Origin: Bacteroides fragilis NCTC 9343
Lineage (GTDB): Bacteria > Bacteroidota > Bacteroidia > Bacteroidales > Bacteroidaceae
Assembly: GCF_000025985.1 (NCBI RefSeq)
Contig: NC_003228.3
Coordinates: 3,100,001 to 3,164,000, forward strand
Length of the DNA stretch: 64,000 nucleotides
Reading direction: 5' to 3'
The notes below the pieces were generated by a model, which saw nothing but the letters and a program-made list of their open reading frames with translations, was not told the origin of the DNA and did no database searches. A program made the position numbers and the translations under genes. Shown piece by piece: positions 26,881-47,593 of this stretch (position 1 is its first letter; every line of letters starts with the position of its first letter).

Positions 26881-27510
26881 ATGGCACTGAAAGAGAAAAT
26901 CAAACAGAATCCCGCACTGAAACAAGCTGTACACCGTTTTATTATGCATCCGGTAAAAACACGTCCCAACTGGTGGATACGTATATTCTCTTTCCTCTAC
27001 CTAAAACGTGGAAAAGGCTCTGTGATTTACCGTAGCGTACGCCAGGATCTTCCCCCATTCAATCTCTTCTCTCTCGGGAAGTATTCGGTAGTGGAAGATT
27101 TTTCGTGTCTGAACAATGCTGTAGGCGACCTGATTATCGGGGAATATACCCGAATCGGACTGGGCAACACTATTATCGGCCCCGCAACCATCGGCAACCA
27201 TGTAAACCTGGCACAGAATGTAACCGTAACCGGCCTGAACCATAATTATCAGGACACAGGCAAGCGGATAGACGAACAAGGAGTAAGCACACAACCCATC
27301 ACGATTGAAGATGATGTATGGGTAGGTGCCAATTCGGTAATTTTACCCGGCGTGACACTGGGCAAACATTGCGTAGTAGCTGCCGGAAGTGTAGTCAGTC
27401 GCTCCATCCCTCCCTACTCTGTCTGTGCCGGCAGTCCGGCTAAAGTAGTCAAACAGTTCAATCCGGAGAGCCGAACCTGGGAAAAAACAGTCTCAAAAAA
27501 CGGAAAGTAA
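26881..27510 (+). CDS. Hexapeptide-repeat acyltransferase
   Basis: This 209-residue left-handed beta-helix protein has repeats such as LIIGEYTRIGLGNTIIGPAT and IEDDVWVGANSVILPGV, ending CVVAAGSVVSRSIPPYSVCAG and SPAKVVKQF. A catalytic-type His appears in TVTGLNHNYQDTG, as in maltose/serine-type O-acetyltransferases. It is last in the cluster and probably acetylates the glycan or a precursor. Its stop codon (27508-27510) overlaps a distal operator of the next promoter. Confidence 0.85.
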   Translation: MALKEKIKQNPALKQAVHRFIMHPVKTRPNWWIRIFSFLYLKRGKGSVIYRSVRQDLPPFNLFSLGKYSVVEDFSCLNNAVGDLIIGEYTRIGLGNTIIGPATIGNHVNLAQNVTVTGLNHNYQDTGKRIDEQGVSTQPITIEDDVWVGANSVILPGVTLGKHCVVAAGSVVSRSIPPYSVCAGSPAKVVKQFNPESRTWEKTVSKNGK

Positions 27511-27586
27511 CTACATATAGTGAGATACTCTACATAATATACCCTAAAAAGGGGATTGTGGCAACCGCCGAAACCGCCTATCTTTG
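27508..27586 (+). promoter_or_regulatory. NarL-type tandem operators and promoter of candidate sRNA
   Basis: The -7 box TATCTTTG is at 27579-27586. The proximal 7-2-7 site is TACCCTA-AA-AAGGGGA (27540-27555) and the distal site TAACTAC-AT-ATAGTGA (27508-27523), centres 32 bp apart. The proximal centre lies 31.5 nt from the -7 box, as in five other promoters of this window. The 14 bp from ACCGCC to the -7 box end (ACCGCCTATCTTTG) are identical to the flavodoxin promoter. Confidence 0.7.
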
Positions 27587-27591
27587 CAGTA

Positions 27592-27684
27592 TCAGAATTT
27601 AATTAATTAGTCATAATTTTATTACGTAGCCACATTTGAGTAAAAGAAACAATCCCGCCGAAGTGATTTCGTCGGGATTTTGTT
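27592..27684 (+). ncRNA. Candidate small RNA (about 90 nt), heme/iron-linked
   Basis: A promoter with its operators ends at 27586 and an intrinsic terminator lies only 65 nt further on: AATCCCG (27651-27657) pairs with CGGGATT (27673-27679), extended by CGAA/TTCG, followed by TTTTGTT. There is no ATG-started frame in between. The transcript would be about 90 nt. Because the promoter shares its operator design with flavodoxin and the hmu operon, the RNA is probably made under the same condition. Both ends are inferred. Confidence 0.6.
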
Positions 27685-27694
27685 ATGAATCTAT

Positions 27695-27780
27695 TTCACC
27701 ACAGATTACACGGATCAATACAGATTCCATCATCTGATTCTCAATGAAATAAATTATTTATCCACATAATTTGCAGTGAG
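27695..27780. repeat. Interspersed inverted repeat, copy R8 (inverted, decayed)
   Basis: The left end TTCACCACAGATTACACGG is intact; the right end has decayed to TAATTTGCAGTGAG. The interior, read backwards, matches the R2 interior around TTTATTTCATTGA, so this copy lies in the opposite orientation. Confidence 0.8.
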
Positions 27781-27785
27781 TTCCG

Positions 27786-28042
27786 AGCATAAAAAAAAAC
27801 GAGTAAATTCTTAAGTAGAATTACCCGCCCCACATCAGAAAAGCCATAAAGGCTTTTCTTTATTACCTCAAAATTCCTAAAAACACAATCTTCTTTTTAC
27901 CTAAAAAACTTTCAATAACCTATTCTTCTTTTACCTTTAAAAATCTTTACCTAATTGAAAATCACTTGAAACTTTTTAATACCTTAAATCTTTATCTAAT
28001 ACCTAATATTCTATTTTACCTTAAATAGCAATTTCTCAACTG
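27786..28042 (-). ncRNA. Candidate ncRNA with AGGUA repeats
   Basis: The minus strand reads nine AGGUA-type pentamers (seven exact, one AGGAA, one AGGUU) between 28021 and 27864, spaced mostly 16-20 nt in AU-rich sequence. Then comes a perfect 9-bp hairpin (AGAAAAGCC, 27837-27859), then a terminator-like hairpin (27801-27826) ending in nine U residues. A strong promoter lies just upstream at 28048-28078. I found no plausible reading frame. It follows the luxR-type gene on the same strand. Confidence 0.65.
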
Positions 28043-28047
28043 CACTG

Positions 28048-28078
28048 CAAAGGTACGGCTTTTTTCGGATTCAGCAAA
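28048..28078 (-). promoter_or_regulatory. Promoter of the AGGUA-repeat RNA
   Basis: On the minus strand TTTG (28075-28078), 19 bp, then TACCTTTG (28048-28055): same spacing as the trp promoter. It lies downstream of the luxR-type stop codon at 28110. Confidence 0.8.
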
Positions 28079-28109
28079 CGCTTTTATGTTTTATAACATT
28101 CTTTTAGAG

Positions 28110-28718
28110 CTATAAATCCTTCACATCACTAAGCTCAACCAGCTTATTTACAATAGCATAGATGGTCAGACCGGCCGCACTGTGTATTTGCAACTTCTTG
28201 CTGATGTTTCTGCGATGTGTAATCACAGTATGAATGGAGAGGAACAGCTTTTCGGCTATCTCCTTATTGGTCATTCCTTTCACCACACAAATCACAATCT
28301 CCTTTTCACGCTGGCTCAAATTCTCTTGACTGTCCTCCTCTTCTTCGGGCTCGATATTCTGCAAAAGATTGATTTTATTGGCCAATGCCTCCAAATCATC
28401 GAAAATAGAAAAAGACGCATCGTATTTACTGAGCAACGAAGCATCGATAAACGAACTGACCAACGCTACTACCCGGATTCCTTTGCCGGCAGTCTCTTCA
28501 CGGAAACGCGCCACATCAAAAAAGTCACCAAAGGTGGGATTGACAACCAGTATGTCAGGAAACTGCGTACGCAGACAATCATTAAGCGCCTCTACCGACA
28601 ACAACTCCACCGGTTGAATCTTTAAATTGGGTAAACGTTTCAGGGCCAGTGTCAGACCACTGCGTATGATCACCGAAGTCTCGGCGACAGCTATACGGAT
28701 TGATTCATTATTTTTCAT
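28110..28718 (-). CDS. NarL/FixJ-type transcription regulator with pseudo-receiver (CdhR-like)
   Basis: The 202-residue protein has an N-terminal receiver-like domain and a C-terminal LuxR helix-turn-helix: LSQREKEIVICVVKGMTNKE and HTVITHRRNISKKL. The phospho-acceptor position is Asn60 (ILVVNPT), so control by phosphorylation is unlikely. It overlaps the hemerythrin-type gene by 11 bp. In P. gingivalis an orphan LuxR protein, CdhR, has been reported to activate hmuY/hmuR, to my recollection; this is a good candidate counterpart. Six promoters nearby carry 7-2-7 sites suited to such a protein, including its own. Confidence 0.85.
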   Translation of the reverse strand: MKNNESIRIAVAETSVIIRSGLTLALKRLPNLKIQPVELLSVEALNDCLRTQFPDILVVNPTFGDFFDVARFREETAGKGIRVVALVSSFIDASLLSKYDASFSIFDDLEALANKINLLQNIEPEEEEDSQENLSQREKEIVICVVKGMTNKEIAEKLFLSIHTVITHRRNISKKLQIHSAAGLTIYAIVNKLVELSDVKDL

Positions 28719-29415
28719 TTTCTCGCATCCTCCTTTCCAATTTCAGAATGGCAGGAACAAACAGATAATCTTCTACTTTGCAATGTGATTCAAGTCCCTC
28801 TTCGCAAGCATATATATCGAACAAGGCAGCATTCAGCACATTGGTATTGGCCTTGGCAGGACAGTATTTAATAATAATGTTCTTCAGTTCCGTTAGGCGT
28901 TCCCCTACCTGATCGTGATGTTTCGAGAAGGTGCTGATCTGATAATTCTTGGGAGCATTGCCATGAATCAGCGTATCTACATACTTAAACACTGTCTTTT
29001 CTTCATACTCCATGTGCTTGCGTACCTCCCGCATATATCCGTCAAAGAACTTTAGAATAAGGAAGGAGACATCGTCCTGCGAACAGTCAATGGCTTCAAT
29101 CAGTTTCCTCCGGATGGCAGGCAGGCAGTAATCAAGAAAATAAATATGCGCCTGTCTCAGATAATCGACCAGGGCCGGTATCGAAATATCGTCGGCACTG
29201 CCGTCCATACGCGAGAATCCCTCGGCCATGAAGTTAACGACTACCAGAAACGTCTGACAATCGACATTATTCATTTCGCAGACTTCTTTCACCGTTTTGT
29301 CACCAAACCCCAGCGAAAGTCCAAACCGGCTCATAACTTGTAAAAGAGAATAATTATCACCGATAAGGTCGATCATTTTATCGGTAGGCTTATATTTTTG
29401 CAGTTTATCCATCAA
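28708..29415 (-). CDS. Hemerythrin-domain protein (RIC/ScdA-like)
   Basis: The 235-residue protein has an N-terminal helical part resembling the ScdA/RIC leader (KMIDLIGDNYSLLQVMSRFG). A hemerythrin-type four-helix bundle follows, with likely iron ligands in YLRQAHIYFLDY, HMEYEEKTVF, FSKHHDQV and ESHCKVEDYLF. RIC proteins repair iron-sulfur clusters after oxidative or nitrosative damage; here it could instead sense oxygen, NO or iron. Co-transcription with the regulator gene suggests it adjusts that regulator. It is divergent from the AICAR transformylase gene. Confidence 0.75.
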   Translation of the reverse strand: MMDKLQKYKPTDKMIDLIGDNYSLLQVMSRFGLSLGFGDKTVKEVCEMNNVDCQTFLVVVNFMAEGFSRMDGSADDISIPALVDYLRQAHIYFLDYCLPAIRRKLIEAIDCSQDDVSFLILKFFDGYMREVRKHMEYEEKTVFKYVDTLIHGNAPKNYQISTFSKHHDQVGERLTELKNIIIKYCPAKANTNVLNAALFDIYACEEGLESHCKVEDYLFVPAILKLERRMRENEK

Positions 29416-29438
29416 ACACCTTATTTATATTACGGGTG

Positions 29439-29485
29439 CAAAGAAACACAATATTTTAATGGTATACAATCACTATAAATAGGTA
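29439..29485 (-). promoter_or_regulatory. NarL-type operator and promoter of the hemerythrin-regulator operon
   Basis: The minus-strand site TACCTAT-TT-ATAGTGA (29470-29485) is centred 31.5 nt from a -7 box TTTCTTTG (29439-29446). The left heptamer fits the NarL consensus TACYYMT exactly. A second TTATAGTGA lies 19 bp further upstream. This suggests autoregulation by the LuxR-type protein. Confidence 0.65.
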
Positions 29486-29586
29486 TTTTCACTATAAACA
29501 GACTAAAAAAGGACAAGAAATGACTAAACAGGACGGTCTGCAAGCAACAAAATCACAGATTATTATTCATCGTTCACCACTATTTT

Positions 29587-29594
29587 TTACCTTT
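29587..29594 (+). promoter_or_regulatory. Putative -7 box for the AICAR transformylase
   Basis: TACCTTTG, 27 bp before the ATG at 29622. It has no NarL-type site at the position seen in the neighbouring promoters. Confidence 0.5.
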
Positions 29595-29621
29595 GCACAA
29601 TTCAACTAAAACATAAACAAT

Positions 29622-30797
29622 ATGACAAACGAACTGGAACTGAAATACGGTTGCAACCCCAACCAAAAGCCCGCGCGTATCTTTATTAAAGAAGGTGAGT
29701 TGCCTATCGAAGTCCTGAACGGACGCCCCGGATATATCAATCTATTGGACGCCCTCAACAGTTGGCAATTAGTGAAAGAGCTGAAAGAAGCGACCGGACT
29801 TCCGGCAGCTGCTTCATTCAAGCATGTAAGCCCGGCAGGTGCTGCGGTAGCAGTAGAAATGAACGACACGTTGAAGAAGATTTATTTCGTAGACGACATG
29901 GAACTCTCTCCGATGGCAACTGCATACGCCCGTGCCCGAGGTGCGGACCGAATGTCATCATACGGAGACTTTATCGCCCTTTCCGATATCTGTGACGAAC
30001 CGACTGCCCGAATCATCAACCGTGAAGTATCGGATGGCGTGATTGCTCCCGGCTATACTCCGGAAGCACTTGAGATCCTGAGAAACAAACGTAAAGGTAC
30101 ATATAATGTCATCAAGATCGATCCGGCCTACCGTCCGGCTCCCATCGAACATAAGGATGTATTCGGAATCACATTTGAACAGGGACGAAATGAACTGAAG
30201 ATAGACGAAAGCCTGCTAAAGGAAATGCCTACCCGTAACCGGATCATCCCGGCCGATGCCCAACGCGACCTGATTATCGCACTGATCACTTTAAAATATA
30301 CACAATCCAACTCTGTCTGCTATGCCAAAGACGGACAAGCTATCGGCATCGGTGCAGGACAGCAATCACGCATTCATTGTACCCGCCTGGCCGGAAACAA
30401 AGCCGATATCTGGTATTTGCGCCAACACCCGAAAGTAATGAATCTGCCCTGGAAAGAAAAAATACGCCGTGCCGACCGCGACAATACAATCGATGTATAC
30501 ATCTCGGACGACTACATGGACGTACTGGCCGATGGTGTATGGGAACAATTCTTCACCCGGAAACCGGAAGTGCTGACCCGTGAAGAAAAACGTGCATGGC
30601 TCGATACCCAATCGGGAGTAGCTTTAGGATCGGATGCTTTCTTCCCGTTTGGAGACAACATTGAGCGCGCGTACAAAAGCGGTGTGAGCTACATTGCCCA
30701 ACCGGGAGGTTCTGTTCGTGACGATCATGTGATAGAAACTTGTGATAAATATGACATAGCAATGGCCTTTACAGGTATCCGCCTGTTCCACCATTGA
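29622..30797 (+). CDS. Stand-alone AICAR transformylase (PurH C-terminal domain only)
   Basis: The 391-residue protein corresponds to the AICAR formyltransferase half of PurH: YGCNPNQKPARI, AAASFKHVSPAGAAVA, KYTQSNSVCYAKDGQAIGIG with GQQSRIHCT, GSDAFFPFGDN and a C-terminal MAFTGIRLFHH. The N-terminal IMP cyclohydrolase domain of about 200 residues is absent, so it could formylate AICAR but not close the ring. Bacteroides usually also carry full-length PurH; whether this genome does cannot be seen. It may handle AICAR from histidine synthesis. Confidence 0.88.
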   Translation: MTNELELKYGCNPNQKPARIFIKEGELPIEVLNGRPGYINLLDALNSWQLVKELKEATGLPAAASFKHVSPAGAAVAVEMNDTLKKIYFVDDMELSPMATAYARARGADRMSSYGDFIALSDICDEPTARIINREVSDGVIAPGYTPEALEILRNKRKGTYNVIKIDPAYRPAPIEHKDVFGITFEQGRNELKIDESLLKEMPTRNRIIPADAQRDLIIALITLKYTQSNSVCYAKDGQAIGIGAGQQSRIHCTRLAGNKADIWYLRQHPKVMNLPWKEKIRRADRDNTIDVYISDDYMDVLADGVWEQFFTRKPEVLTREEKRAWLDTQSGVALGSDAFFPFGDNIERAYKSGVSYIAQPGGSVRDDHVIETCDKYDIAMAFTGIRLFHH

Positions 30798-30812
30798 TAA
30801 CAATCGCCCCCC

Positions 30813-30892
30813 TCCCCATTTATAGTGATAGCTACCCTGCTATTTCCATTATAAATGGGGATTTTCTATTTCTGCCGGACCGCCTATCTTTG
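30813..30892 (+). promoter_or_regulatory. NarL-type tandem operators and promoter of flavodoxin
   Basis: The -7 box TATCTTTG is at 30885-30892. The proximal site (30846-30861, CCATTAT-AA-ATGGGGA) is centred 31.5 nt from it; the distal site TCCCCAT-TT-ATAGTGA (30813-30828) lies 33 bp further out. The two sites face each other as a larger inverted repeat (CCCCATTTATA / TATAAATGGGG). Confidence 0.7.
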
Positions 30893-30919
30893 CCGTATCA
30901 TTTAAAAACAAGATCAGAA

Positions 30920-31429
30920 ATGAATAAGATTGGAGTATTTTACGGTTCCACAACGGGGACTACCGAAGATGTAGCCCACCGGATTGCAGAAAAACTGAAC
31001 GTTCCCAATGGTGACATCCACGATGCATCAAAACTGAACGACGAGTTAGTGAAAGAATATGATGTATTAGTACTGGGCACCTCTACGTGGGGAGCAGGCG
31101 AGCTTCAGGATGACTGGTACGACGGTATCAAAGTGCTGAAGAAGGCTGACTTGTCTCACAAATTCGTAGCCCTCTTCGGCTGTGGCGATTCAGACTCTTA
31201 CAGTGACACCTTCTGCGACGGTATCGGCATCTTATACGAAGAACTTAAAGACACCCACTGCACCTTCTGCGGGGCAACCGATCCGTCGGGCTACACATTC
31301 GACTCTTCTGTTGCGGTAATCAACGGCAAGTTTGTAGGACTTCCTTTAGATGAAGTGAACGAAGATGGCAAAACCGACGAGCGTATCGCTCAATGGACTG
31401 AAGCCTTGAAAAAAGAATGTATCAACTAA
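30920..31429 (+). CDS. fldA: Flavodoxin
   Basis: The 169-residue FMN electron carrier replaces ferredoxin when iron is short. The phosphate loop YGSTTGTTEDVA follows strand 1; LGTSTWGAGELQDDW and FGCGDSDSYSDTFCD are the flavin-stacking loops, with the long-chain insertion typical of this class. ATG 30920 is used; the frame upstream to 30794 contains the promoter and is not translated. The NarL-type operators upstream fit induction on iron or heme limitation. DUF2023 follows after 22 bp. Confidence 0.95.
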   Translation: MNKIGVFYGSTTGTTEDVAHRIAEKLNVPNGDIHDASKLNDELVKEYDVLVLGTSTWGAGELQDDWYDGIKVLKKADLSHKFVALFGCGDSDSYSDTFCDGIGILYEELKDTHCTFCGATDPSGYTFDSSVAVINGKFVGLPLDEVNEDGKTDERIAQWTEALKKECIN

Positions 31430-31451
31430 TTTAAAAACTCCAACGAACGTT

Positions 31452-31814
31452 ATGGCTATCGAACGAAAGGTTCCGGGTGAAATACGAATTTTCCTGAACC
31501 ATGTATACGAATTCAAGAAGGGAGTACGCAACATGGTACTCTATACGATGAACAAGGAACACGAAGCCTTTGCCATACGCCGTCTGGAAAGACAGAATAT
31601 CAGCTACCTGATACAAGAAGTAAACGCCAATAAGATAAATCTGTTCTTTGGTAAGGCCGAATGTATGGATGCCATACGACATATCATTATTCGGCCTTTA
31701 AACCATCTCACTCCGGAAGAAGATTTCATTCTGGGCGCCATGCTCGGATACGACATCTGCCAACAGTGCAAACGCTATTGCAACAAAAAAGGGAATATAA
31801 AGATTGCCGGCTGA
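31452..31814 (+). CDS. DUF2023 family protein, flavodoxin partner
   Basis: The 120-residue protein resembles the DUF2023 family: FLNHVYEFKKGVRNMVLYT, then an alpha/beta core, then a C-terminal cysteine cluster CQQCKRYC. The function is unknown, but it follows flavodoxin here and so may be an accessory for it. The cysteine cluster could bind a metal. An internal Met at residue 28 is an alternative start. Confidence 0.75.
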   Translation: MAIERKVPGEIRIFLNHVYEFKKGVRNMVLYTMNKEHEAFAIRRLERQNISYLIQEVNANKINLFFGKAECMDAIRHIIIRPLNHLTPEEDFILGAMLGYDICQQCKRYCNKKGNIKIAG

Positions 31815-31895
31815 GTTGCAGCTTGCTTTCAGTACAGGTAACAAGGTTCATCAGGCCAATGCATTAATGCCATAGGGAGATGAACTATTAGAAAG

Positions 31896-31981
31896 TCTCA
31901 CCATCACAGGGTAACACAGAGTTCCACAGAGAAGAGAATAACAGAAAACTCCGTAGAACTCTGTTTCAATTTGTGGTGAAA
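31896..31981. repeat. Interspersed inverted repeat, copy R9 (decayed)
   Basis: Left arm TCACCATCACAGGGTAACAC, right arm ending CAATTTGTGGTGAAA. Recognisable but with many mismatches. It follows the DUF2023 gene. Confidence 0.65.
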
Positions 31982-32119
31982 TCAATTCACCCCCCAACCG
32001 AACTACCTCTCTACCGGATACAACACACCTACTGCCTCTTTCTTTCTTCATTTCATAAAGAATGTTATTCCCGTAGTATTTTCCGTTGGAAATTTGTTTT
32101 ATAAGAAAACAATTAATTA

Positions 32120-32304
32120 AGAACCTGTTTAAATTTTCCTGGAATAAACTTTTATATGGTTTTTATCGATCTGTTTTGAGTCTCTTTTTCGATCTATTTC
32201 CTTGTTTTCATGCGTCACATAGCCCGCTATGCCTTCACAGAGACAAGAGAATATCCTTGAAAATAAATCTCAAAACAATCTCGAACAAAATTCAGACAGA
32301 TTCT
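32120..32304. repeat. 185-bp imperfect palindrome (MITE-like)
   Basis: The ends AGAACCTGTTTAAATTT (32120-32136) and its near complement at 32288-32304 differ by three transitions. Inner blocks also pair: GTTTTGAG with CTCAAAAC, CTTGTTTTCATG with its loose complement, and CATAGC with GCTATG at the apex. Most of the gap from 31815 to 32323 is therefore repeat; a 76-residue frame inside it is not credible as a gene. Confidence 0.65.
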
Positions 32305-35412: not shown

Positions 35413-36390
35413 CTATCCTTCTTCCGGCCAGAGTTCTCCGGCAACCATTTCAGCCATTTTCAATGTATGCCACTGTTTTTCTTCAGCAGCTTCATAAGAT
35501 TCCGAAGGCAACACTTCGGCATTGGGTATGCACAGCGAGAAACGGTGCGAAGGAATATAACGTATGATCTGGTCGATCTTGGCTCTCAACTCTTCCAGCT
35601 CTTCCTCCACGGGATAATGCGAAAGTACGAAGCCAAACACAGATTGCTTCTCGCGGATGAACCACAACAAACGGTTCTTGCCGCAACATTCCGAATCGTA
35701 ATCGAGGAAAAAAGCATGAATCCCCTGTAGCGAGAAAAGCATCTCGGTAGGTGAATGAAAAGCAATGAAAAGATCGGCGGGAAGATTCTCCAATGCCATG
35801 TTGTTGACACGGATCGCGTTATCCGTCACCGTACGCGTTGCATCATCGAGTTGCAGATAACGGCATCCCGATCTGTACAGTTCCATAATCAGTTTCTGAT
35901 ACGTCTGTGCAAGGTCTACCAACAGTATCTCACGGTCGGGATAGACCGAATCGAGTTCGGTCCGGTTTGCGTCTTTCATTAATTCTGCCAGCAGGCGCGA
36001 AGGCGCAGGAAGCACTTGCTTAGCTATTACATCTCCACCGGTCACCCCGGTAAGAAAGACAAAATCATCGAGCACAGGATGGTGATGTACATCGATCCGA
36101 CCGGTCAGTTCGACAGAGGTCTTTCTGTCATCCCGGAACCGGATACCATCCAATCCGCACATAAAGTCGAGCGGCCACGCATCACTGCGGAAACGGCCGT
36201 CAGTGACCACCTTCAACCCTTCTGCCTTCAGTCTGTCTACCAGATTCCGTATCTCGGCATCTTCGACAGCACGCAAGGTCAGCAGGCTGATTTGTTCGTT
36301 TCGATATTGCTCACGGGCTTCTCTCAATGCAGCGGGCAAAAGAAAAGTACCGGCAACGTCTACTTTGAACGGAGGAACTACGTTTTCCAT
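35413..36390 (-). CDS. B12-independent methionine synthase-like protein (MetE C-terminal family)
   Basis: The 325-residue protein corresponds to the catalytic half of MetE (YxjG/YxjH-like): FKVDVAGTFLLP, VVTDGRFRSDAW, YLQLDDATRT, FIAFHSPTEM, and YDSECCGKNRLLWF with a possible Zn Cys. It lacks the N-terminal MetE half, so it probably takes methyl groups from another donor. A cobalamin riboswitch directly upstream means it is made when B12 is scarce, matching a substitute for B12-dependent MetH. Confidence 0.82.
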   Translation of the reverse strand: MENVVPPFKVDVAGTFLLPAALREAREQYRNEQISLLTLRAVEDAEIRNLVDRLKAEGLKVVTDGRFRSDAWPLDFMCGLDGIRFRDDRKTSVELTGRIDVHHHPVLDDFVFLTGVTGGDVIAKQVLPAPSRLLAELMKDANRTELDSVYPDREILLVDLAQTYQKLIMELYRSGCRYLQLDDATRTVTDNAIRVNNMALENLPADLFIAFHSPTEMLFSLQGIHAFFLDYDSECCGKNRLLWFIREKQSVFGFVLSHYPVEEELEELRAKIDQIIRYIPSHRFSLCIPNAEVLPSESYEAAEEKQWHTLKMAEMVAGELWPEEG

Positions 36391-36464
36391 ACGTTCTACG
36401 TTTTTAATATTGATTGTTACTATCGTGCTTCGCTCCTAACCCACGAGGAACCAAGACTTATCAG

Positions 36465-36645
36465 CGAGAGTGGCAGGTCTTCTGACTTAGCTTCCATTCC
36501 GAACGCCTTCCCGACTACACGAGTCAGTGGCCAAAGAGTATCCTGTCGGAATGTTTATAATAAAACTTCACAGCAGCGGGACTGTCCGGGAGTTACACCC
36601 GATTCCCTTTTAATCGCCCAAAGCAGGAAAGCTTCGGCGAACCAA
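36465..36645 (-). promoter_or_regulatory. Cobalamin riboswitch
   Basis: The minus strand reads GGGAATCGGGTGTAA, then GACAGTCCCGCTGCTGTGAA (B12 box), and later TCAGAAGACCTGCC, the conserved blocks of the adenosylcobalamin riboswitch in order. It matches the second riboswitch in this window block by block. A -7 box TATATTTG lies at 36654-36661. It sits 75 bp upstream of the methionine-synthase-like gene and should shut it off when B12 is plentiful. Confidence 0.92.
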
Positions 36646-36732
36646 TCTGCCGACAAATATAAAAACAATAAATCAGATATTTGTGTTCAACATGATACTT
36701 TTTTCAATCAGAGCCTCTGTCCGGGCAAAATA

Positions 36733-36807: not shown

Positions 36808-39117
36808 TTAATAGCTGATCTTTATTCCGGCGAAATAGCTTCGCGGAGCAGCCGGACCATAAATATATCCGGAGTCACGCTCCACTCCCTGGTCGAAATC
36901 GTTCTGATAAGCATTGAACACATTCTGCACACCTGCACTCAATTGCAGGTCCACCGATTTATAAAGTTTGAAATCATAGGCCACCTTGACTCCCATATCG
37001 AAGAAATCGCGCGTATTCACCGCCACATCCTTGTCAATATAACCGGCCATGTGCTGCACCAGCATCGATCCGGTGTACGTGCCCGACAGGGATAATGACA
37101 GAGGCTTGATCGGCATATACGTTGCCGTAAAGTACCCATAGGTATTCGGCGTACGGAAAATCTTCTTCTCGGCCGGTGCCGTTTCGCTCCATTTTTCCGG
37201 TTCGTCATAACGGCTCTGTTGCAACGTGACTCCTGCCTGTAACTGGAACAAAGAGAGATAAGCCATTTTTCCCTCCATCGACAGTCCCAATACTTTGGCT
37301 CCCGATCCGTTACGGCGCTCTTTGATAAGAATGCCGTCCCGCTCTCCAATGTTCTCGAGTACAAATACATCCGACAGTCTGGTATAAAAACCTTCAACCA
37401 GGAAGTTTACCTGAAAAGCACCGAAACGATGATACATATCGGCTGAAGCGCTGAAACTCTGAGATTTTTCCTCTTTCAGATTCTTGGCACGCTCAATCAT
37501 CGACACCGTTCCGCCTACATTCTCAATATGCAGGTCTTCGTCGAAAGCCTGCGGGGCACGGAAGCCCGACGAATAACTCAGGCGAAGATTAATGTCCTCG
37601 GAAGGATTGAAACGGAGATTGGCACGAGGGCTAAAGATAACATGGTTGATCAGATTGTGCTTATCCAGACGTCCGCCCAACAGAATGCTCCATTTCTCGT
37701 TTTTCCATTCATTCTGCAAAAAAGCACTACCAATATTTACCGTCTGCTTCGTATAACGGTTGTATCCCCACATATCGTCCTTCAGGTTATCCCGGTTATA
37801 CTCCAATCCCGCAGTCAGGTCGGCAGGCATGAAAAGGCATTTACCGAAACTGTACACATATTGAGAACCGCCGATAAATGTCAGGTCCGTTGTCTTTCCA
37901 TAGGCGTTCTGGTCTTTTTTGCTGCCATAATAACTGTCGCGGTCCGTATGCTGTGCCGAAGTATAAACGGTCAGACGGTGTTTTTCATTCGGAGCAAAAT
38001 AATCGAATTTCAAGCCACCACCGTTGATGGAGTGCTGAATCTGCTCGGCAATGTCAGCCTCGTGAGGCGGACGGTTCAGCAGGTTTCCGCCACGACGAAA
38101 CTCCTGTAAGTGATGATACTCAAATGTCAACTTAGAATAAGTGCTTGTCTTGAGGAACGAACGGAAGCCGACTGTCTGGTTTTTAAGTTTCGGCATTTCG
38201 GAATAACCGTCTCCATCATGATCGTACGCATCCCGGTGACGGTTCTGTCCGAACACATAAAGTCCCGCCCGATGATCATCGGTCACCAGCGATGCGTTCA
38301 GCGAAGTATTATTATCGAAAGACGAGCTGCCGCCGATAGAAGTAAGAGTATGTGCCAACTGCCCCGAATTGCGCAATGGCTCCTTGGTGATAATATTAAT
38401 GGTTCCGGCAATAGCGGACGAACCGAACAGGGCAGAACCTCCGCCTCGCATCACCTCTACCCGCTCGATCATATTGGCAGGAATCTGTTCCAACCCGTAA
38501 ACACCGGAAAGGGCACTGAAGATGGGACGCGAATCGATAAGAATCTGTGTATACGGACCGTCCAGTCCATTGATGCGCACCTGCTGGAAACCGCAATTCT
38601 GACAGTTCGTTTCGACCCGGACACCGGGCTGGAAGTTAAGCCCCTGCGAAAGTGTAGGCGAGTTTGTATTCTCAAACATCTTCATATCTACCACATTGAC
38701 CAATGTAGGTGCCAAGCGCCGTTTGGTCACGCTGCGATTGGCCGAAACTACCACTCCGTCAAGCGCTACGGCATCTTCTTCCAACTCAAAATTTTCTTCA
38801 AGTGTCTTTCCTTTCCTGAGACTGACATTGCGACTGATGGTTTTATACCCCACCGAACTGGCTTCGAGCACAAAATTCCCTTCGGGAAGGTTTTTCAGGA
38901 AATAGTGTCCGGTGGCATCCGTCACCGTACCGATGGTAGTTCCTTTCAGGGCGATTGTTATATAAGAGAGGTGTTCACCTGTTTTTTTATCGAGTACATG
39001 GCCGATGATATTGGCATCAGACGCTTTCAGTTCCGGATGTTCCGGTTGGTCGGCCATAGCAGGCAACAGGGCACAGCACAGGCTAACGAGGAAAAATATA
39101 TATTTCTTCATTTTCAT
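36808..39117 (-). CDS. TonB-dependent outer-membrane receptor
   Basis: The 769-residue protein has a signal peptide ending LLPAMA, a CarboxypepD-like domain (NIIGHVLDKKTGEHLSYI), a plug (NSPTLSQGLNFQPGVRVE through VEVMRGGGSALFG and AGTINIITKEP), and a 22-strand type barrel ending GIKISY. The plug contains CQNCGFQQVRINGLDGPYTQ, seen in BtuB- and metal-type receptors of Bacteroides. It follows the His-rich protein gene by 64 bp and probably shares its NarL-type promoter. Candidate ligands are heme, iron complexes or another metal. The B12 riboswitch downstream does not precede this gene. Confidence 0.85.
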   Translation of the reverse strand: MKMKKYIFFLVSLCCALLPAMADQPEHPELKASDANIIGHVLDKKTGEHLSYITIALKGTTIGTVTDATGHYFLKNLPEGNFVLEASSVGYKTISRNVSLRKGKTLEENFELEEDAVALDGVVVSANRSVTKRRLAPTLVNVVDMKMFENTNSPTLSQGLNFQPGVRVETNCQNCGFQQVRINGLDGPYTQILIDSRPIFSALSGVYGLEQIPANMIERVEVMRGGGSALFGSSAIAGTINIITKEPLRNSGQLAHTLTSIGGSSSFDNNTSLNASLVTDDHRAGLYVFGQNRHRDAYDHDGDGYSEMPKLKNQTVGFRSFLKTSTYSKLTFEYHHLQEFRRGGNLLNRPPHEADIAEQIQHSINGGGLKFDYFAPNEKHRLTVYTSAQHTDRDSYYGSKKDQNAYGKTTDLTFIGGSQYVYSFGKCLFMPADLTAGLEYNRDNLKDDMWGYNRYTKQTVNIGSAFLQNEWKNEKWSILLGGRLDKHNLINHVIFSPRANLRFNPSEDINLRLSYSSGFRAPQAFDEDLHIENVGGTVSMIERAKNLKEEKSQSFSASADMYHRFGAFQVNFLVEGFYTRLSDVFVLENIGERDGILIKERRNGSGAKVLGLSMEGKMAYLSLFQLQAGVTLQQSRYDEPEKWSETAPAEKKIFRTPNTYGYFTATYMPIKPLSLSLSGTYTGSMLVQHMAGYIDKDVAVNTRDFFDMGVKVAYDFKLYKSVDLQLSAGVQNVFNAYQNDFDQGVERDSGYIYGPAAPRSYFAGIKISY

Positions 39118-39181: not shown

Positions 39182-39526
39182 CTATCTCCCGGCAGGAGGT
39201 GCCCGCAAAGATACCACGCCCACGACGGACGAACAGTATCCTGCCCTATCCGGACGCCACGAAAGGGTATAGAGCAGACAAGCAATAAACTGAAGAGAGA
39301 GAAAAAAGATACCGGCTCCGGTAGTCACCACGTGATTCAGCAAATGAATCAATTGAAATTCGACCGTGGTGTGACTATGGGGAGAGTCTTTCTTAAACGG
39401 GTGCGAATGGACAATGGTCACCCCATTCACTACATGCGAGTGAGTAAAGAGTGTGATACCTGCCATGTACGATATAAATAGCACAGGCAGAAACCATCTC
39501 ATTATTTTCAGGCACCCTTGTTTCAT
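39182..39526 (-). CDS. Small membrane protein with His-rich periplasmic segment
   Basis: The 114-residue protein has a first hydrophobic segment (FLPVLFISYMAGITLF), then a short His-rich stretch with HSHVVNGVTIVHSHP and SPHSHT, then a second membrane helix (GIFFLSLQFIACLLYTL) and an Arg-rich tail. The histidines suggest metal binding in the periplasm. It is co-directional with and upstream of the TonB receptor gene and is driven by a NarL-type operator, so a role in handling an imported metal or heme is plausible. No named family is recognised. Confidence 0.65.
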   Translation of the reverse strand: MKQGCLKIMRWFLPVLFISYMAGITLFTHSHVVNGVTIVHSHPFKKDSPHSHTTVEFQLIHLLNHVVTTGAGIFFLSLQFIACLLYTLSWRPDRAGYCSSVVGVVSLRAPPAGR

Positions 39527-39542: not shown

Positions 39543-39589
39543 CAAAGATAAGAAGTATTCCATAATGGAACAATCCCTATTTATAGGGA
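39543..39589 (-). promoter_or_regulatory. NarL-type operator (perfect palindrome) and promoter
   Basis: The palindrome TCCCTAT-TT-ATAGGGA (39574-39589) is the best site in the window, with flanking A and T extending it to 18 bp. Its centre is 31.5 nt from the minus-strand -7 box TATCTTTG (39543-39550). No distal partner is seen at 32-33 bp. It drives the His-rich protein and probably the TonB receptor. Confidence 0.75.
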
Positions 39590-43300: not shown

Positions 43301-43390
43301 AATTCTTGAGATTAGTTACAAGGGTGTAAACAAAATCCGCAAGAAAAGGTTTGATGGCTGTGGGAAAGGAATCGCTGCCGGCTATAGAAG

Positions 43391-43446
43391 ACACGGAGGG
43401 CACAGAGCGCTATTCCTGGGAATAGTTATGCTCTGTGCCCTCCGCA
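43391..43446. repeat. Hairpin with nested inner hairpin
   Basis: The outer arms CGGAGGGCACAGAGC and GCTCTGTGCCCTCCG enclose an inner pair CTATTCC/GGAATAG. It may be a distant member of the CACAGAG repeat family. It lies just after the YidE-type gene (minus strand) and could act in its 3' end; no T-run is present. Confidence 0.6.
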
Positions 43447-43469
43447 GTATCTTTTTATGGTCAGCCGGC

Positions 43470-45068
43470 TTAGTACACCACTGTTGCAATCACCTGTATA
43501 AACAGGATCAGGAATACCATTGCAATCGGATATACCGTAGCATAAGCTACACTCGGGATATTGCTGTCTACCATCGAGTCGGCAGCCGCAAGTCCCGGCG
43601 TACTGGTCATACCGCCGGTAATGGTACCCAGCAAATCGAGCAAGCTGATCTTAAACACCAGACGTCCGACGAACACAGCAATCAGCATCGGTACTAAAGT
43701 AATGGCGGCACCTACTCCGAACAGCAGCAGACCGCTCTCCTGGAAAGTAGCGACCAGATTCTTACCTGCCGACGTACCTACCTCGGCAAGGAAAAGCAAC
43801 AGTCCCAACTGACGAAGCAATTGGTTGGCAGGTCCGGACATAGACCAAAGGATAGGCCCGGTCTTGCCTATCGCGCTCAGCAGCAAAGCCACCATCAGCA
43901 CACCACCTGTCAATCCCGGTGAAAAGGATAATCCGCCCGGGAACGAGATATTGAGTTTGCCGAACAGAACTCCCAGCACAATACCCATAGCAATGGGGAA
44001 GAAATCCGTGTCGGAAAGCTTCTTGGCATTATTACCCAGCAGACGGGCTACTCCCTTGATACCTTCTTTCTCACCAACGACCATCAGTTTATCGCCAAAC
44101 TTCAATGCCAGGTCGGGTGACGGAGAGAGGTCGATACCGCTTCGACGGACACGTGTCACGGTACAACCGAAATTCTTCATCAGGTTCAGGTCGCCCAACT
44201 GCTTATTGATCATATCTTTCTTGGTCAACAGCAATGATTCGATTTCTTGCGTGTTTTCCAACGGAAGTTCACCTTCTTCACGTTCACCTACCAGCACGGC
44301 AAGTTGTGTCAGAGCTTCTTCGCTACCCACTGCCTGAATGTAGTCCCCTTCATGGAGCACCGTATGGGCTGTCGGAATGGATATCTCTTCCTGATGCTTC
44401 AGGCGTGAGATAACGGCTCCTGTCATGGCACGTGCATTGATCTGCATCAGGCTACGGCCGAATACACTCGGATTCGTGATACGATAAATGCAGGTTCCCA
44501 GTTCCGGAAACTGTCCGCGACGCTCTATCTCAAGACGACGGGCCTCTTTGTCAAGGTCGATACGCATTATCTTCGGCAGCAACTTCACAAACAGGATGAC
44601 ACCAATCACGCCAAACGGATAGGCAATACCATAAGCGATAGAAGCCAACGGAGAGTTGGTGCTGTCGATGGCAACGGCCAAACCCGGTGTACTGGTCAGC
44701 GCTCCGGCTACCAGCCCCACCACACTCGGTGTATCGATGCCAAACGCATACTTTAACCCGACAGCAGTCAGACAGGCAGAACTGATGATAAGCATGGTAA
44801 TAATGATCAGCGTCTTCCCCTTACTGCGGAAAGAATCGAAGAATCCCGGCCCCGCCTGGATACCGATGGTAAAGATAAAAAGTACCAATCCGAAATTCCC
44901 CAGTTCCTTGGGAATAATCACACCGAAATGCCCGAAAAGAAGGGCAATGAAGATAACCGCCGACACGTCGAGCGATAGCCCCTTAATCTTGATTCTTCCC
45001 AACATGAAGCCCAACGCAACAATAAGGAAGAGAGAGAAATAAGAGGAGTGCAATAAATCAGTAAACAT
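43470..45068 (-). CDS. YidE/aspartate:alanine-exchanger family transporter
   Basis: The 532-residue membrane protein has two homologous membrane halves (LGFMLGRIKIKGLSLDVSAV and MGIVLGVLFGKLNISFPGG), each with an SxPG loop (LTSTPGLAVAID, MTSTPGLAAADS). Two TrkA-C domains lie between the halves (residues about 205-375). This is the AAE/YidE architecture, secondary exchange of amino or dicarboxylic acids. The substrate cannot be told. It is monocistronic. Confidence 0.9.
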   Translation of the reverse strand: MFTDLLHSSYFSLFLIVALGFMLGRIKIKGLSLDVSAVIFIALLFGHFGVIIPKELGNFGLVLFIFTIGIQAGPGFFDSFRSKGKTLIIITMLIISSACLTAVGLKYAFGIDTPSVVGLVAGALTSTPGLAVAIDSTNSPLASIAYGIAYPFGVIGVILFVKLLPKIMRIDLDKEARRLEIERRGQFPELGTCIYRITNPSVFGRSLMQINARAMTGAVISRLKHQEEISIPTAHTVLHEGDYIQAVGSEEALTQLAVLVGEREEGELPLENTQEIESLLLTKKDMINKQLGDLNLMKNFGCTVTRVRRSGIDLSPSPDLALKFGDKLMVVGEKEGIKGVARLLGNNAKKLSDTDFFPIAMGIVLGVLFGKLNISFPGGLSFSPGLTGGVLMVALLLSAIGKTGPILWSMSGPANQLLRQLGLLLFLAEVGTSAGKNLVATFQESGLLLFGVGAAITLVPMLIAVFVGRLVFKISLLDLLGTITGGMTSTPGLAAADSMVDSNIPSVAYATVYPIAMVFLILFIQVIATVVY

Positions 45069-45101
45069 AAATAAAAAGGTTAATTTTAGTTGTTATGTGC
45101 G

Positions 45102-45109
45102 CAAAGGTA
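45102..45109 (-). promoter_or_regulatory. Putative -7 box for the YidE-type gene
   Basis: Minus-strand TACCTTTG, 34 bp before the ATG at 45068. Confidence 0.5.
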
Positions 45110-45381
45110 CGTAAAAAACTGTTTTCGACTATAGCAAAAGAAGAAGTTATTTTCTTCGCCAAACCCTAAAGCCTTCACATAAGGAAAGCGGAACGGATAT
45201 TTTACAATCAAAAAGACAGAAATTAAAAGATTCTGCTAACGCACCCTCTATTTAAAAACGGTCATATAGGGTAACCGGAAGACTTAGCAGCCAACTTCAC
45301 CCCTTCCAGAAGTCCTGAAAACGGGGTTCTGTTTTTCACTTTTACAGAAAAACAATAAGGATAGACAAAAAAGGGAGTAAC

Positions 45382-45432
45382 CATCCGGCCAGTATGCCGT
45401 AACCATACTTACCGGATGAAGTAATCATCCGG
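45382..45432. repeat. Cluster of alternating CATCCGG/CCGGATG repeats
   Basis: CATCCGG (45382-45388) with AGTATG pairs with CATACT and CCGGATG (45412-45418), and that CCGGATG can instead pair with a further CATCCGG at 45426-45432. The two hairpins are therefore mutually exclusive. This is the only structure seen in the 676-bp gap 45069-45744; no credible gene was found there. Confidence 0.6.
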
Positions 45433-45744
45433 TCAAAATGGTATAACCTAACCGGAAAAAGGCTTTGAAAAAGACTGTTTTACTCTACTTCGTCCACGCT
45501 TCCGAACGGCGACCAAGTGTCAGAAAGCAACGATATAGGTAATAAGAGATCCATATTTCACATATTACAACCGAATCAGCGACAGATAGCAGTTCATGCG
45601 GCACATTAAGTATCCGAACACAAAATCGCCAACGGCATTTCCCGGTGTTTTTCCGAACAACTCCCAACGAGGGATACAAATACGGGATTCTACAAGATTT
45701 TAAATATCAATTTGACAAATTGCTCTTTTCTTCGAAAATATACT

Positions 45745-46653
45745 TTAAGAAATACAATCCTCCCCTTCGCAACATGCTCCTTTATACTCAAATTCTAAAG
45801 TGGCATGAGTGATCCCGACATGTTCCAGTTCATGCTTAACCTCGCGCTTTACCTCTTCCATACGGCGGAGATCGCCTATCACGATATGGGCAGTCAATGC
45901 TGTTTCGGTAGTGCTCAATGCCCAGATATGCAGATGGTGATAACTCTCCACACCGGGTTGCTCCAGGATAACCCGCCCGATCTTTTCACTATCTATTCCC
46001 ATCGGGACTCCGTCGAGCGAAAGGCGGAGGCTGTCGTGCAGTAAGCTCCAGGTTGAGATGACAATGATGACGGCAATCACCAGGCCGATGATCGGATCGA
46101 CAAGTGTCCAACCGGTGTACATGATGATAATACCCGAAATGACCACTCCCACCGATACCAACGTATCGGCAGCCATATGCAGATAAGCTCCTTTCACGTT
46201 GAGGTCTTTTTCCTTATCTTTCATAAAAAGCCAGGCTGTAACGGCATTGATAACCACTCCCACACCTGCCGTCCAGGCAATGGCAGCACCTTCAACCGGA
46301 ACGGGATGGAACAACTTCTCTATACTCTCGGTGATGATAATGCCGACGGCAACCAGAAGAATAACAGCATTGAGCAGAGATACCAGTACCGTACTCTTTT
46401 TATAACCGTATGTATAACGACTGTTGGGATGCACCTTTGCCAACCGGAAAGCAAGCATGGCAAGCACAAGGCTTGCCACATCGCCCAAGTTGTGCCCGGC
46501 ATCGGAAAGCAACCCCAAAGAATCATAATAGAAACCGATGCCGAACTCAACGAGGACAAACAAAATATTCAGCGTAATGCCAATTATAAAAGATTTATTG
46601 AGCGACGTCAGTTCGTGGACGTGCTCGTGATGATGTTCGTGAGAATGTGCCAT
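45745..46653 (-). CDS. CDF-family metal cation exporter (CzcD/ZitB-like)
   Basis: The 302-residue protein has a His-rich N-terminus (AHSHEHHHEHVHE), six membrane helices, and the paired HD motifs for metal binding: LLSDAGHNLGDVA in helix 2 and YLHMAADTLVSVGVV in helix 5. It ends in a ferredoxin-like cytoplasmic domain with a terminal CCEGEDC. It should export zinc or related divalent metals against protons. The start at 46653 places the His tail at the N-terminus. Confidence 0.93.
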   Translation of the reverse strand: MAHSHEHHHEHVHELTSLNKSFIIGITLNILFVLVEFGIGFYYDSLGLLSDAGHNLGDVASLVLAMLAFRLAKVHPNSRYTYGYKKSTVLVSLLNAVILLVAVGIIITESIEKLFHPVPVEGAAIAWTAGVGVVINAVTAWLFMKDKEKDLNVKGAYLHMAADTLVSVGVVISGIIIMYTGWTLVDPIIGLVIAVIIVISTWSLLHDSLRLSLDGVPMGIDSEKIGRVILEQPGVESYHHLHIWALSTTETALTAHIVIGDLRRMEEVKREVKHELEHVGITHATLEFEYKGACCEGEDCIS

Positions 46654-46700
46654 GCTCGATTAAGATATTTATCTATTCTAAAAACAGACAAACCGGCAGA

Positions 46701-47045
46701 TTAGTTCAATGAAATATCATGCATAAAAGGTATCAAGCCATCCGTTTCTTCAACGGCCGGCGACTGCAGCAAAACCAGAGACTTCAGTTCTTCAAGTTCG
46801 GCCGTACAGACACAGAAATAGACATTCTGGGCCGGCAATTTCAGAAAGATCTTCCGGTTGGCATTCATTTTCCTGTTCGACCTCTCACAGTAAGGTCCGT
46901 TAATCGATACAATATAATTGCGTAGACACTCAAATCCGGCTTCGGACAGACGAAAGAAAAGGTTGCCAAATTCCAGATGATACACTTTACAATGGGCACA
47001 GTAAGTAATCATTCCATTGCGGGTTCTGCTGATTAGTTCCATCAT
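46701..47045 (-). CDS. DUF6686-like small cytoplasmic protein
   Basis: The 114-residue protein begins MMELISRTRNG and has a CAHCKVYHLEFGNLFFRLS segment resembling a small CxxC unit, then SINGPYCERSNRKM. It has no signal or membrane segment. The upstream in-frame ATG at 47090 is rejected because the promoter -7 box lies at 47070-47077. The promoter carries NarL-type sites like the hmu operon, so it is probably expressed with heme or iron genes. The family name is a recollection and less sure than the gene call. Confidence 0.7.
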   Translation of the reverse strand: MMELISRTRNGMITYCAHCKVYHLEFGNLFFRLSEAGFECLRNYIVSINGPYCERSNRKMNANRKIFLKLPAQNVYFCVCTAELEELKSLVLLQSPAVEETDGLIPFMHDISLN

Positions 47046-47069
47046 AACTTTAACGTTTTGGTGATGGCA

Positions 47070-47148
47070 CAAAAGTACGCAGATCACCAAGTGAAGGCAA
47101 TACCTACTAATATCTAATTATCAGACAACCGATAGCCACATATGGGGA
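47070..47148 (-). promoter_or_regulatory. NarL-type tandem operators and promoter of the DUF6686-like gene
   Basis: Minus-strand -7 box TACTTTTG at 47070-47077; the proximal site TAGATAT-TA-GTAGGTA (47101-47116) is centred 31.5 nt away; the distal site TCCCCAT-AT-GTGGCTA (47133-47148) lies exactly 32 bp further. The distal left heptamer equals that of the flavodoxin distal site. Confidence 0.6.
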
Positions 47149-47514
47149 GACAAGTCTGCCGTACGATCATAGTATGAAGAAATCTCAATGTTCAGAAACG
47201 GTCGGATACCCCATCAACCTTACTGCAGTCATCACCAAAACTCCCGCTACGACCATCCGCAATACTACTCCTAGGTCTTACAAGAGATATTATTGTCTTC
47301 AAAAACTGAATTGTTTTCGGACAATAGCATAACACTTGGATCACTTTTCAGAAAAGCCATAACTATCACATGCTATTTCAATTCTTTGCCACATATATGA
47401 TAACAATATACAAAATGAATAGCTAAGTAAAGTTGTTTTTCCTTGCTTGTATATACCATATTTTTACAGATCATGGCACAGGCCACTCTTTCGTTCCCTA
47501 TTCGCCAGCACATC
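47149..47514. other. Gene-free stretch between divergent promoters
   Basis: AT-rich, no credible frame on either strand. The only feature noted is an isolated half-site TCCCTAT at 47495-47501, 20 bp before the distal hmu operator. Confidence 0.5.
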
Positions 47515-47593
47515 TACTTATTAATAGGTACTGAGTTCAGTCTTTTTCATTCTGTTTAGGTATTGTAACACCTTTTTAGTCCACCTACCTTTG
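47515..47593 (+). promoter_or_regulatory. NarL-type tandem operators and promoter of the hmu operon
   Basis: The distal site TACTTAT-TA-ATAGGTA (47515-47530) is a near-perfect 7-2-7 palindrome in which both heptamers fit TACYYMT. The proximal site TCATTCT-GT-TTAGGTA (47547-47562) is centred 32 bp downstream and 31.5 nt from the -7 box TACCTTTG (47586-47593). The transcript leader would be about 50 nt. Confidence 0.75.

Follow-up and report, generated by a model that had tools for sequence, protein, structure and literature searches.

The DNA examined is a window of 64,000 bases from the genome of Bacteroides fragilis NCTC 9343 (bases 3,100,001-3,164,000 of contig 1, which has 5,205,140 bases; whole genome, 5,241,700 bases). 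It includes a two-gene operon that encodes a hemerythrin-like protein and, directly after it, a regulator with a LuxR/GerE-type helix-turn-helix (HTH). Around it lie a putative small RNA (sRNA) gene and genes for a flavodoxin, TonB-dependent receptors and the hmu operon, and their promoters share an inverted-repeat operator at a fixed position. Together these parts are proposed to form a two-gene iron-starvation switch, with a hemerythrin sensor, an activator of the CdhR type and an iron-sparing sRNA arm, a reading to which we assign a probability of about 75%. The features are listed here in window coordinates.

27508..27523, + strand, distal operator for the sRNA, lying 32 bp upstream from its proximal partner, score 14.9
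27540..27555, + strand, proximal operator of the sRNA promoter, box at 27579-27586
27587..27690, + strand, putative sRNA, predicted start at about 27587-27595, intrinsic terminator at about 27651-27684
28110..28718, - strand, probable CdhR-type regulator, with a receiver-like domain lacking the phosphorylation residues and a GerE/LuxR HTH
28708..29412, - strand, hemerythrin-like di-iron protein encoded by the leading gene of the operon, probable iron sensor (Pfam Hemerythrin, 4.6e-12)
29470..29485, - strand, operator of the hemerythrin-regulator operon (putative autoregulation), box at 29439-29446, score 35.3
30813..30828, + strand, distal operator for flavodoxin, lying 33 bp upstream from its proximal partner, score 16.2
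30846..30861, + strand, proximal operator of the flavodoxin promoter, box at 30885-30892
30920..31429, + strand, flavodoxin (Pfam PF00258, 1.2e-23)
31452..31814, + strand, DUF2023 protein, downstream of flavodoxin (Pfam PF09633, 8e-47)
36808..39117, - strand, TonB-dependent receptor (Pfam PF00593, 1.3e-31)
39182..39526, - strand, open reading frame (ORF) for a His-rich protein of 114 aa, no Pfam match
39574..39589, - strand, operator of the His-rich protein and TonB receptor genes, box at 39543-39550, score 33.3
46701..47090, - strand, DUF6686 protein (Pfam PF20391, 7.5e-25), true start probably near 47044 (by eye)
47101..47116, - strand, proximal operator of the DUF6686 gene, box at 47070-47077, score 21.4
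47133..47148, - strand, distal operator for the DUF6686 gene, a weak one lying 32 bp upstream from its proximal partner, score 7.9
47515..47530, + strand, distal operator of the hmu promoter, TACTTATTAATAGGTA, score 17.7
47547..47562, + strand, proximal operator of the hmu promoter, box at 47586-47593
47651..48502, + strand, calycin-like domain protein encoded at the head of the hmu operon (Pfam PF13944, 8.5e-23)
49210..51354, + strand, hmu TonB-dependent receptor (Pfam PF00593, 9.5e-47)

An original prediction, made from the window sequence, had placed six sites at 27540, 29470, 30846, 39574, 47101 and 47547, each with its centre 31.5 nt away from the T that opens a TAnnTTTG-type box. All six were located at these positions and the spacing holds for every 16-mer; measured from the end of the 19-mer, the gap to the box is exactly 20 nt at all six. 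The box has the form T(A/T)nnTTTG throughout, and TAnnTTTG was not borne out for the 29470 site, where the box reads TTTCTTTG. Five of the sites end in ATTG, as predicted, the exception being 30846, which ends in ATTT. When the window was scored with a matrix derived exclusively from sites outside it, the seven best combinations of site, 20-nt gap (N20) and box in the 64 kb were the six predicted sites and the one at 30813, with scores from 35.3 to 15.9. The next best place in the window scored 13.6, and 20 dinucleotide shuffles gave a mean of 0.15 places at or above 15 and none at or above 18. Genome counts outweigh this ranking, because the pattern behind the matrix was itself prompted by the window. 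With at most two mismatches, site-N20-box occurs at 17 places in the B. fragilis genome versus none for the reversed pattern, and with at most three mismatches at 23 places versus 7; for the 19-mer alone, at most three mismatches give 71 places versus 42 in the control. Nine of the 14 19-mer places with two or fewer mismatches have T(N3)TTTG exactly 20 nt downstream, and a tenth, at 3830321, has GATATTTG at the box position.

The predicted binding site consists of inverted heptamers in a 7-2-7 arrangement, TACCTAT-N2-ATAGGTA, which is the NarL-type layout that had been claimed. Operator halves were judged against the NarL heptamer consensus, and both halves of the distal hmu operator at 47515 match it. 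A caveat attached to the original prediction was that the TTG of the ATTG end could itself be the -33 element and thus partly fix the spacing. Against this stands the conservation of the far half-site, which is part of no promoter element: among 59 strong sites upstream of hemerythrin genes, T1 is found in 59/59, A2 and C3 in 55/59 and C4 in 56/59. Given the conserved TACC and the failure of the reversed control, chance promoter spacing was rejected.

The linkage of the operator to the operon was assessed in 247 genomes of the order Bacteroidales, in which site-N20-box was counted at up to two mismatches and the hemerythrin protein was sought at E <= 1e-10. The 161 genomes with the hemerythrin gene have 223 operator matches versus 34 in the control, and the 86 genomes without it have 38 versus 29 (Mann-Whitney p 2e-7 for this contrast, with B. 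fragilis NCTC 9343 left out and kinship uncorrected). Of 80 loci, 58 have operator and box in the 400 bases before the hemerythrin gene, compared with 23 of 1422 control windows drawn from those loci; the operator was present before 44 of 51 two-gene loci, 14 of 28 loci in which the two genes are fused, and not before the one unresolved locus. In 56 of the 59 strong pre-hemerythrin sites the box follows exactly 20 nt on, with 5 or 6 of 6 letters, and the mean box score is 5.24 at 20 nt with a runner-up of 3.24 at 21 nt. In a separate set of 29 scorable loci of the order, which includes B. fragilis NCTC 9343 and loci of the same genus, 13 reach p <= 0.01 against 100 shuffles each, one of the 13 (L087) scoring just 11.6. 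A site upstream of the hemerythrin operon is a mark of autoregulation and ties the site to the product of that operon; with the co-occurrence, it makes recognition of the operator by this product likely. Fur was rejected as the binder, since the operator co-occurs with the hemerythrin gene and is at control level in Fur-bearing genomes that lack that gene. The original prediction had read the sites as a heme/iron-limitation regulon, and this is supported both by the co-occurrence and by the genome scan, in which the arrangement stands mostly at iron and heme genes and far above the reversed control.

Each of the four weaker near sites (sRNA, flavodoxin, hmu and DUF6686) has a partner 32-33 bp upstream, with the scores listed above; the two strong near sites (29470 and 39574) have no partner within 69 bp. 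In 28 sRNA promoters of the genus, the best partner is at 32 bp in 20 and at 33 bp in 4, and offset 32 has a mean score of 3.5 versus -29.2 across all offsets. As 32-33 bp is about three helical turns, this suggests dimers on one face of the DNA. Before hemerythrin operons generally, evidence for a tandem site is weak, offset 32 being the top one with a mean of -19.5 versus -23.1 overall. Since TAnnTTTG is the -7 element, according to the cited part of PMC7366714, the near operator would be centred at about -43. Activation is the probable mode in Bacteroides, given this fixed position, the presence of helper sites and the published finding that hmuYR depends on CdhR.

The protein encoded at 28110-28718, claimed to be of the NarL type, has a NarL/LuxR-type (GerE) HTH and also the receiver fold. 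Receivers bear the phosphorylated Asp directly after strand 3. In 51 regulator sequences (50 loci and that of B. fragilis NCTC 9343), this position, 60, is Asn in 49 and Ser in 2. The acid pair at positions 12-13 is replaced by Ala followed by Glu (46) or Asp (5), and position 107, assigned by eye, is Asp in place of Lys in 50 of the 51. With Asn or Ser at position 60 and an altered acid pair, the regulator is thus unlikely to be phosphorylated in the usual way. In 28 of 79 loci, from Prevotella, Alistipes, Muribaculaceae and others, the hemerythrin frame is fused directly into the HTH with no receiver, and the genes are separate in the other 51; a hemerythrin-HTH fusion has been noted in P. 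intermedia (PMC10434189). Because of the receiver-less fusions and the lost phospho-Asp, the receiver is dispensable and the hemerythrin protein is likely to be the input of the regulator.

In 15 sequences of the hemerythrin protein, residues H89, H133, E137, H166, H210 and E214 are invariant, and they follow the order of the di-iron ligands in YtfE. The best fold match of the protein model is also YtfE (TM 0.52). The score against the NCBIfam RIC equivalog is 47.1 bits, with a cut-off of 204.7; the protein is a relative of RIC in a new role, and not RIC, and would serve here to sense iron. The regulator matches the CdhR type, as judged by the operon layout, with a LuxR/GerE HTH regulator directly after a hemerythrin-domain protein, and by the account of BT0519-20 in PMC10434189. 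The regulator itself is therefore a known one, and not new.

The 27540 promoter precedes an intergenic stretch of about 100 nt that closes with an intrinsic terminator. A second, unlinked copy at 2241732-2241778 (-) has the same promoter and a related sequence; it lies beside the gnd-zwf-pgl genes, and a divergent site at 2241794 (+) faces a short ORF. Alignment of 13 copies revealed a near-invariant core, unpaired in the consensus fold, which consists of two segments, TTAGTCATAAT and ATTACGTA(G/A)CCAC, with a variable linker between them. In the terminator stem, 6 of 7 pairs show two-sided, pair-keeping changes (covariation). A covariance model (R1) matched 56 sRNA copies in 48 of 60 genus genomes, including 36 of 37 good ones, with two matches apiece in 8 of the 60. 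Thirty of the 56 matches were examined as loci, and operator-N20-TAnnTT(T/C)G precedes all 28 copies that were scored, in a count with no separate shuffled control; L201 and L206 were left unscored, as the core pattern was not found in them. In Bacteroides faecis, two copies share a contig about 8 kb apart, and the second (L107:3615-3731) has, by eye, its own operator. In a Phocaeicola metagenome-assembled genome (L139:7978-8095), an operator-less copy stands directly after the regulator gene and is perhaps processed from the operon transcript. A search of the window with Rfam 15 gave three matches, none of them at the sRNA at gathering score. A peptide encoded antisense to the core was considered and rejected, because its frame is broken, by eye, in several aligned copies.

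Allowing one mismatch at most, the genome contains three matches to the complement of the second segment outside the sRNA gene. One of these covers the start codon of frdC, which heads the fumarate reductase/succinate dehydrogenase operon and was called from a Pfam Sdh_cyt match below cut-off followed by Fer2_3 and flavoprotein subunits; the other two lie inside ORFs, one of them antisense. The frdC pairing is unchanged in 28 of the 30 genus genomes examined, out of 55 that carry the gene. Across the genus, the frdC leader and first 16 codons are near-frozen at synonymous positions well past the sRNA pairing (30 loci, of which 2 were left out because the wrong start had been picked). Other constraints hence act on this start too, and another one at the RNA level is likely. 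The genome has six exact copies of the 11-base complement to the first segment. The sRNA genes account for two, and three of the remaining four provide a gene with its ATG start codon (rubrerythrin, frdA and a lipoprotein gene).

When 125 automatically called gene starts from the loci analysed were ranked by duplex energy, frdC was 2nd, frdA 3rd and rubrerythrin 8th, with the second rubrerythrin at 28.5 and frdB 46th; a rank sum as low for these five genes was obtained with 0 of 300 shuffled segments. Both ranked families had been picked from the list of low-iron-repressed genes in PMC10434189 before the overlap was noticed, with the frdC match already in hand. A gene without a known iron link (L062:3109) pairs better than frdC (-16.9 versus -15.4). 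The exact 11-mer is present only in the rubrerythrin gene that has no Fur neighbour, and the second rubrerythrin gene, which is not among the predicted targets, follows a Fur gene. The Fur-linked rubrerythrin is reported as not affected by iron in B. thetaiotaomicron, and sdh/frd and rubrerythrin are down in low iron in all three species (PMC10434189); the passages on these decreases name no cause. As judged by sequence, the sRNA is antisense, as RyhB would be, to the translation starts of mRNAs for iron enzymes (frdC, frdA and rubrerythrin).

The predicted regulon was taken from the 17 genome places with at most two mismatches, which include the window sites 29470, 39574 and 47101 and the second sRNA (2241732). 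The other predicted targets are given here by the genome position of the site.

22999, TonB receptor and PepSY protein
1281773, TonB, HmuY and PepSY
2328272, TonB, with the gene starting 273 nt downstream
2511915, outer-membrane beta-barrel protein
2514782, lipoprotein with an LRR-like domain, then DUF4903 and a TonB receptor, adjoining the 2511915 unit
3572422, TonB-plug protein and DUF4876
3830321, TonB, with the gene starting 456 nt downstream
5169621, TonB, DUF4374 and PepSY, in the xusABC layout
1413726-1413772, enolase, a less expected target
696603, AraC regulator, less expected
4095143, C10-type protease, with the protease domain under the Pfam cut-off, less expected
1913814, C10-type protease, poor box, gene located 557 nt downstream, less expected
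4036851, protein of 569 aa without a Pfam match, less expected

The six further places with three mismatches include the window hmu site; the others precede TonB, MFS and HemN genes with one for an amine-oxidase-family flavoprotein (2322592), precede a hexapeptide acetyltransferase gene (4839368), or are without annotation (1129613, 1815813 and 4266360). At 2523470, before genes for TetR, an LCM-type methyltransferase and an ABC transporter, there is a site-only match, where the box reads TAATTTTA.

Low-iron induction in B. thetaiotaomicron (PMC10434189) is 489-676 fold for BT2063-65 (xus), 11-291 fold for BT0491-99 (hmu), 2.4-676 fold for BT0503-09, 37-598 fold for BT0515-17 including fldA, 16-20 fold for BT0519-20 (hemerythrin and regulator) and 3.5-7.4 fold for BT1933-39, which has DUF4876 and TonB. 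Loci with domain content matching that of the predicted targets thus rank among the strongest inductions reported there, equivalence between the two species being judged by layout and domain content, with no tree. The operator-N20-box of the enolase gene is a good one, and a glycolytic gene is unexpected in an iron regulon; the word 'enolase' is absent from the main text of PMC10434189. The C10-type proteases behind operator-like sites also carry an Inhibitor_I69 domain, and the BT2450 locus, which contains a C10-like gene, is listed as iron and colitis regulated (PMC10434189).

These observations can be arranged into a mechanism. The sequences themselves establish the operator with its fixed spacing and tandem pairs, its co-occurrence with the operon, the fusions, the loss of the phosphorylation residues, and the sRNA family with its complementarity; from these, the binding, the activation, iron as the signal, contact between hemerythrin and CdhR, the start sites, and the expression and action of the sRNAs are inferred. 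The hemerythrin-like protein (28708-29412) would sense cellular iron at its di-iron site and control the neighbouring NarL-type regulator CdhR (28110-28718) by contact, not by phosphorylation. In low iron, CdhR dimers would occupy TACCTAT-N2-ATAGGTA, with its centre some 43 bp before the transcription start, touch the -33 element and activate. Strong single sites would serve the regulator's own operon and the His-rich protein/TonB genes, and the weaker near sites of the sRNA, flavodoxin, hmu and DUF6686 promoters would each be assisted by another site 32-33 bp upstream. The predicted output is import of iron and heme, and replacement of ferredoxin by flavodoxin. The two related sRNAs, if expressed, would cover the start codons of the frdC, frdA and rubrerythrin mRNAs and so spare iron.

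Several results weigh against such a switch. No recognisable operator precedes half of the fusion loci (14 of 28) or 7 of the 51 loci with two genes, and one (L139) of 15 sRNA copies lacks it. The frdA complementarity is exact in just 15 of 30 genomes, and neither segment has an enriched complement genome-wide: the second has 48 places versus 62 in the control (30 of the 48 were annotated, three being near the starts of short, probably spurious ORFs), and the 11-mer of the first has 6 versus 5 in a control whose places were not located. Enolase, AraC, the C10 proteases and the 569-aa protein are not evidently iron-related, and the low-iron data come from another species, B. thetaiotaomicron. 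It is also conceivable that the sites belong to a different regulator, either of the Fur family or another of the LuxR type, and that the hemerythrin-regulator operon is merely one of its targets. Iron genes are classic Fur targets, Fur-family proteins are encoded in 222 of the 247 genomes, and the B. fragilis genome encodes another protein that matches the regulator at E <= 1e-12. However, at least 61 of the 86 hemerythrin-less genomes have a Fur-family protein, yet their sites are at control level, the 7-2-7 inverted repeat fits a NarL-type HTH, and a Fur-type repressor needs no single fixed position; we therefore regard a foreign owner of the sites as quite unlikely.

That the sites are operators of a repressor, which blocks RNA polymerase at -33 when iron is plentiful, is improbable on the grounds of geometry. 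Although the operator overlaps the -33 element and the hemerythrin protein could bring iron as corepressor, a box exactly 20 nt away in 56 of 59 strong sites and helper sites 32-33 bp upstream are the layout of a polymerase-touching activator, and CdhR is said to act as an activator in P. gingivalis. It is hardly credible that the spacing is mostly a by-product of an ordinary promoter, with -33 TTG and -7 TAnnTTTG about 20 nt apart, overlaid with a loose A+T-rich motif. The TTG does agree with the -33 TTTG element reported in the cited part of PMC7366714. Nevertheless, the far half TACC, outside the promoter elements, is about as constant as the ATTG end, and neither the 17 places versus 0 in the reversed control nor the dependence on the operon across genomes fits such a by-product. 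Hemerythrin and RIC relatives bind O2 or nitric oxide (NO) or act in the repair of iron centres, and sensing of oxygen or NO, instead of iron or besides it, would agree with YtfE/RIC as the nearest fold of the sensor and with rubrerythrin as a predicted sRNA target. Such a signal is nonetheless rather unlikely, as iron depletion is what brings about induction in published work (PMC10434189) and most of the regulon serves iron and heme import; iron and O2/NO signals may be combined. With an iron-responsive CdhR activator as the preferred reading, we see about an even chance that the whole is a Fur-independent circuit of the Bacteroidales, in which a hemerythrin sensor acts on a phosphorylation-blind NarL-type activator, is fused to it in some lineages, and is joined in Bacteroides by two-segment antisense sRNAs that would block the starts of fumarate reductase and rubrerythrin.

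Comparison with known systems places the individual parts. NarL/FixJ response regulators have in common with the regulator the HTH, the receiver fold and the 7-2-7 inverted-repeat site, but the phosphorylatable Asp, acid pair and Lys are missing here and the fusion forms have no receiver. RIC, YtfE and ScdA resemble the hemerythrin protein in the six His/Glu, which stand in YtfE ligand order, and in the fold match, but they score apart from it (47.1 bits versus the 204.7 cut-off), and the partner in the operon here is a transcription factor, sometimes fused. RyhB and PrrF are iron-sparing small RNAs made by Fur derepression. Like them, the putative sRNA stands behind what is predicted to be an iron-starvation-type promoter, has two copies in this genome, and is complementary to starts in the fumarate reductase/succinate dehydrogenase operon and of another iron enzyme; unlike them, it lies behind a CdhR-type operator, predicted to serve an activator. 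No Rfam match links it to RyhB/PrrF, and this was the only similarity search made to them. RitR of streptococci is an atypical, phosphorylation-independent iron regulator with a DNA-binding class other than that found here. SsoR of Shewanella likewise has a phosphorylation-independent receiver in an iron regulator, and the cited part of PMC12442407 mentions no hemerythrin partner, unlike here. The closest relatives are CdhR (PG1237) with hemerythrin PG1236 in P. gingivalis and BT0519-20 in B. thetaiotaomicron, which have the same two-gene operon (PMC10434189). Low-iron induction and an hmu target are reported for these systems, CdhR of Porphyromonas being tied to low iron and hmuYR (PMC10434189); here an operator pair precedes hmu.

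Literature searches, in which coverage of CdhR was incomplete and earlier footprints are possible, returned no CdhR operator, fixed promoter position, tandem sites or Bacteroides iron sRNA, and none of these appears in the cited parts of PMC12150765, PMC13370916 or PMC7366714. Hence the operator, the promoter geometry, the order-wide linkage and the sRNA arm are new with respect to the literature searched. The same searches gave no iron-sparing RNA system in this phylum. To our knowledge, none has been described. Bacteroides persist in the iron-poor inflamed gut, and the molecular mechanisms of their iron response are scarcely known, with the mode of action of CdhR unclear (PMC10434189). An operator of exact geometry, a predicted regulon with xus-like, hmu and flavodoxin genes, and an sRNA pair with defined targets make the CdhR question directly testable. 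If iron acts via hemerythrin, this would be a bacterial iron sensor distinct from Fur, DtxR and IscR, and the sRNA arm, if true, would be RyhB logic achieved by activation and not by derepression.

Elsewhere in the window, Rfam identified cobalamin riboswitches at 36455-36661 (-) and 57593-57814 (+), which precede ORFs at 35413-36390 (-) and 57880-60399 (+), respectively, and a Bacteroidete tryptophan leader RNA (RF01692) at 13186-13332 (+).

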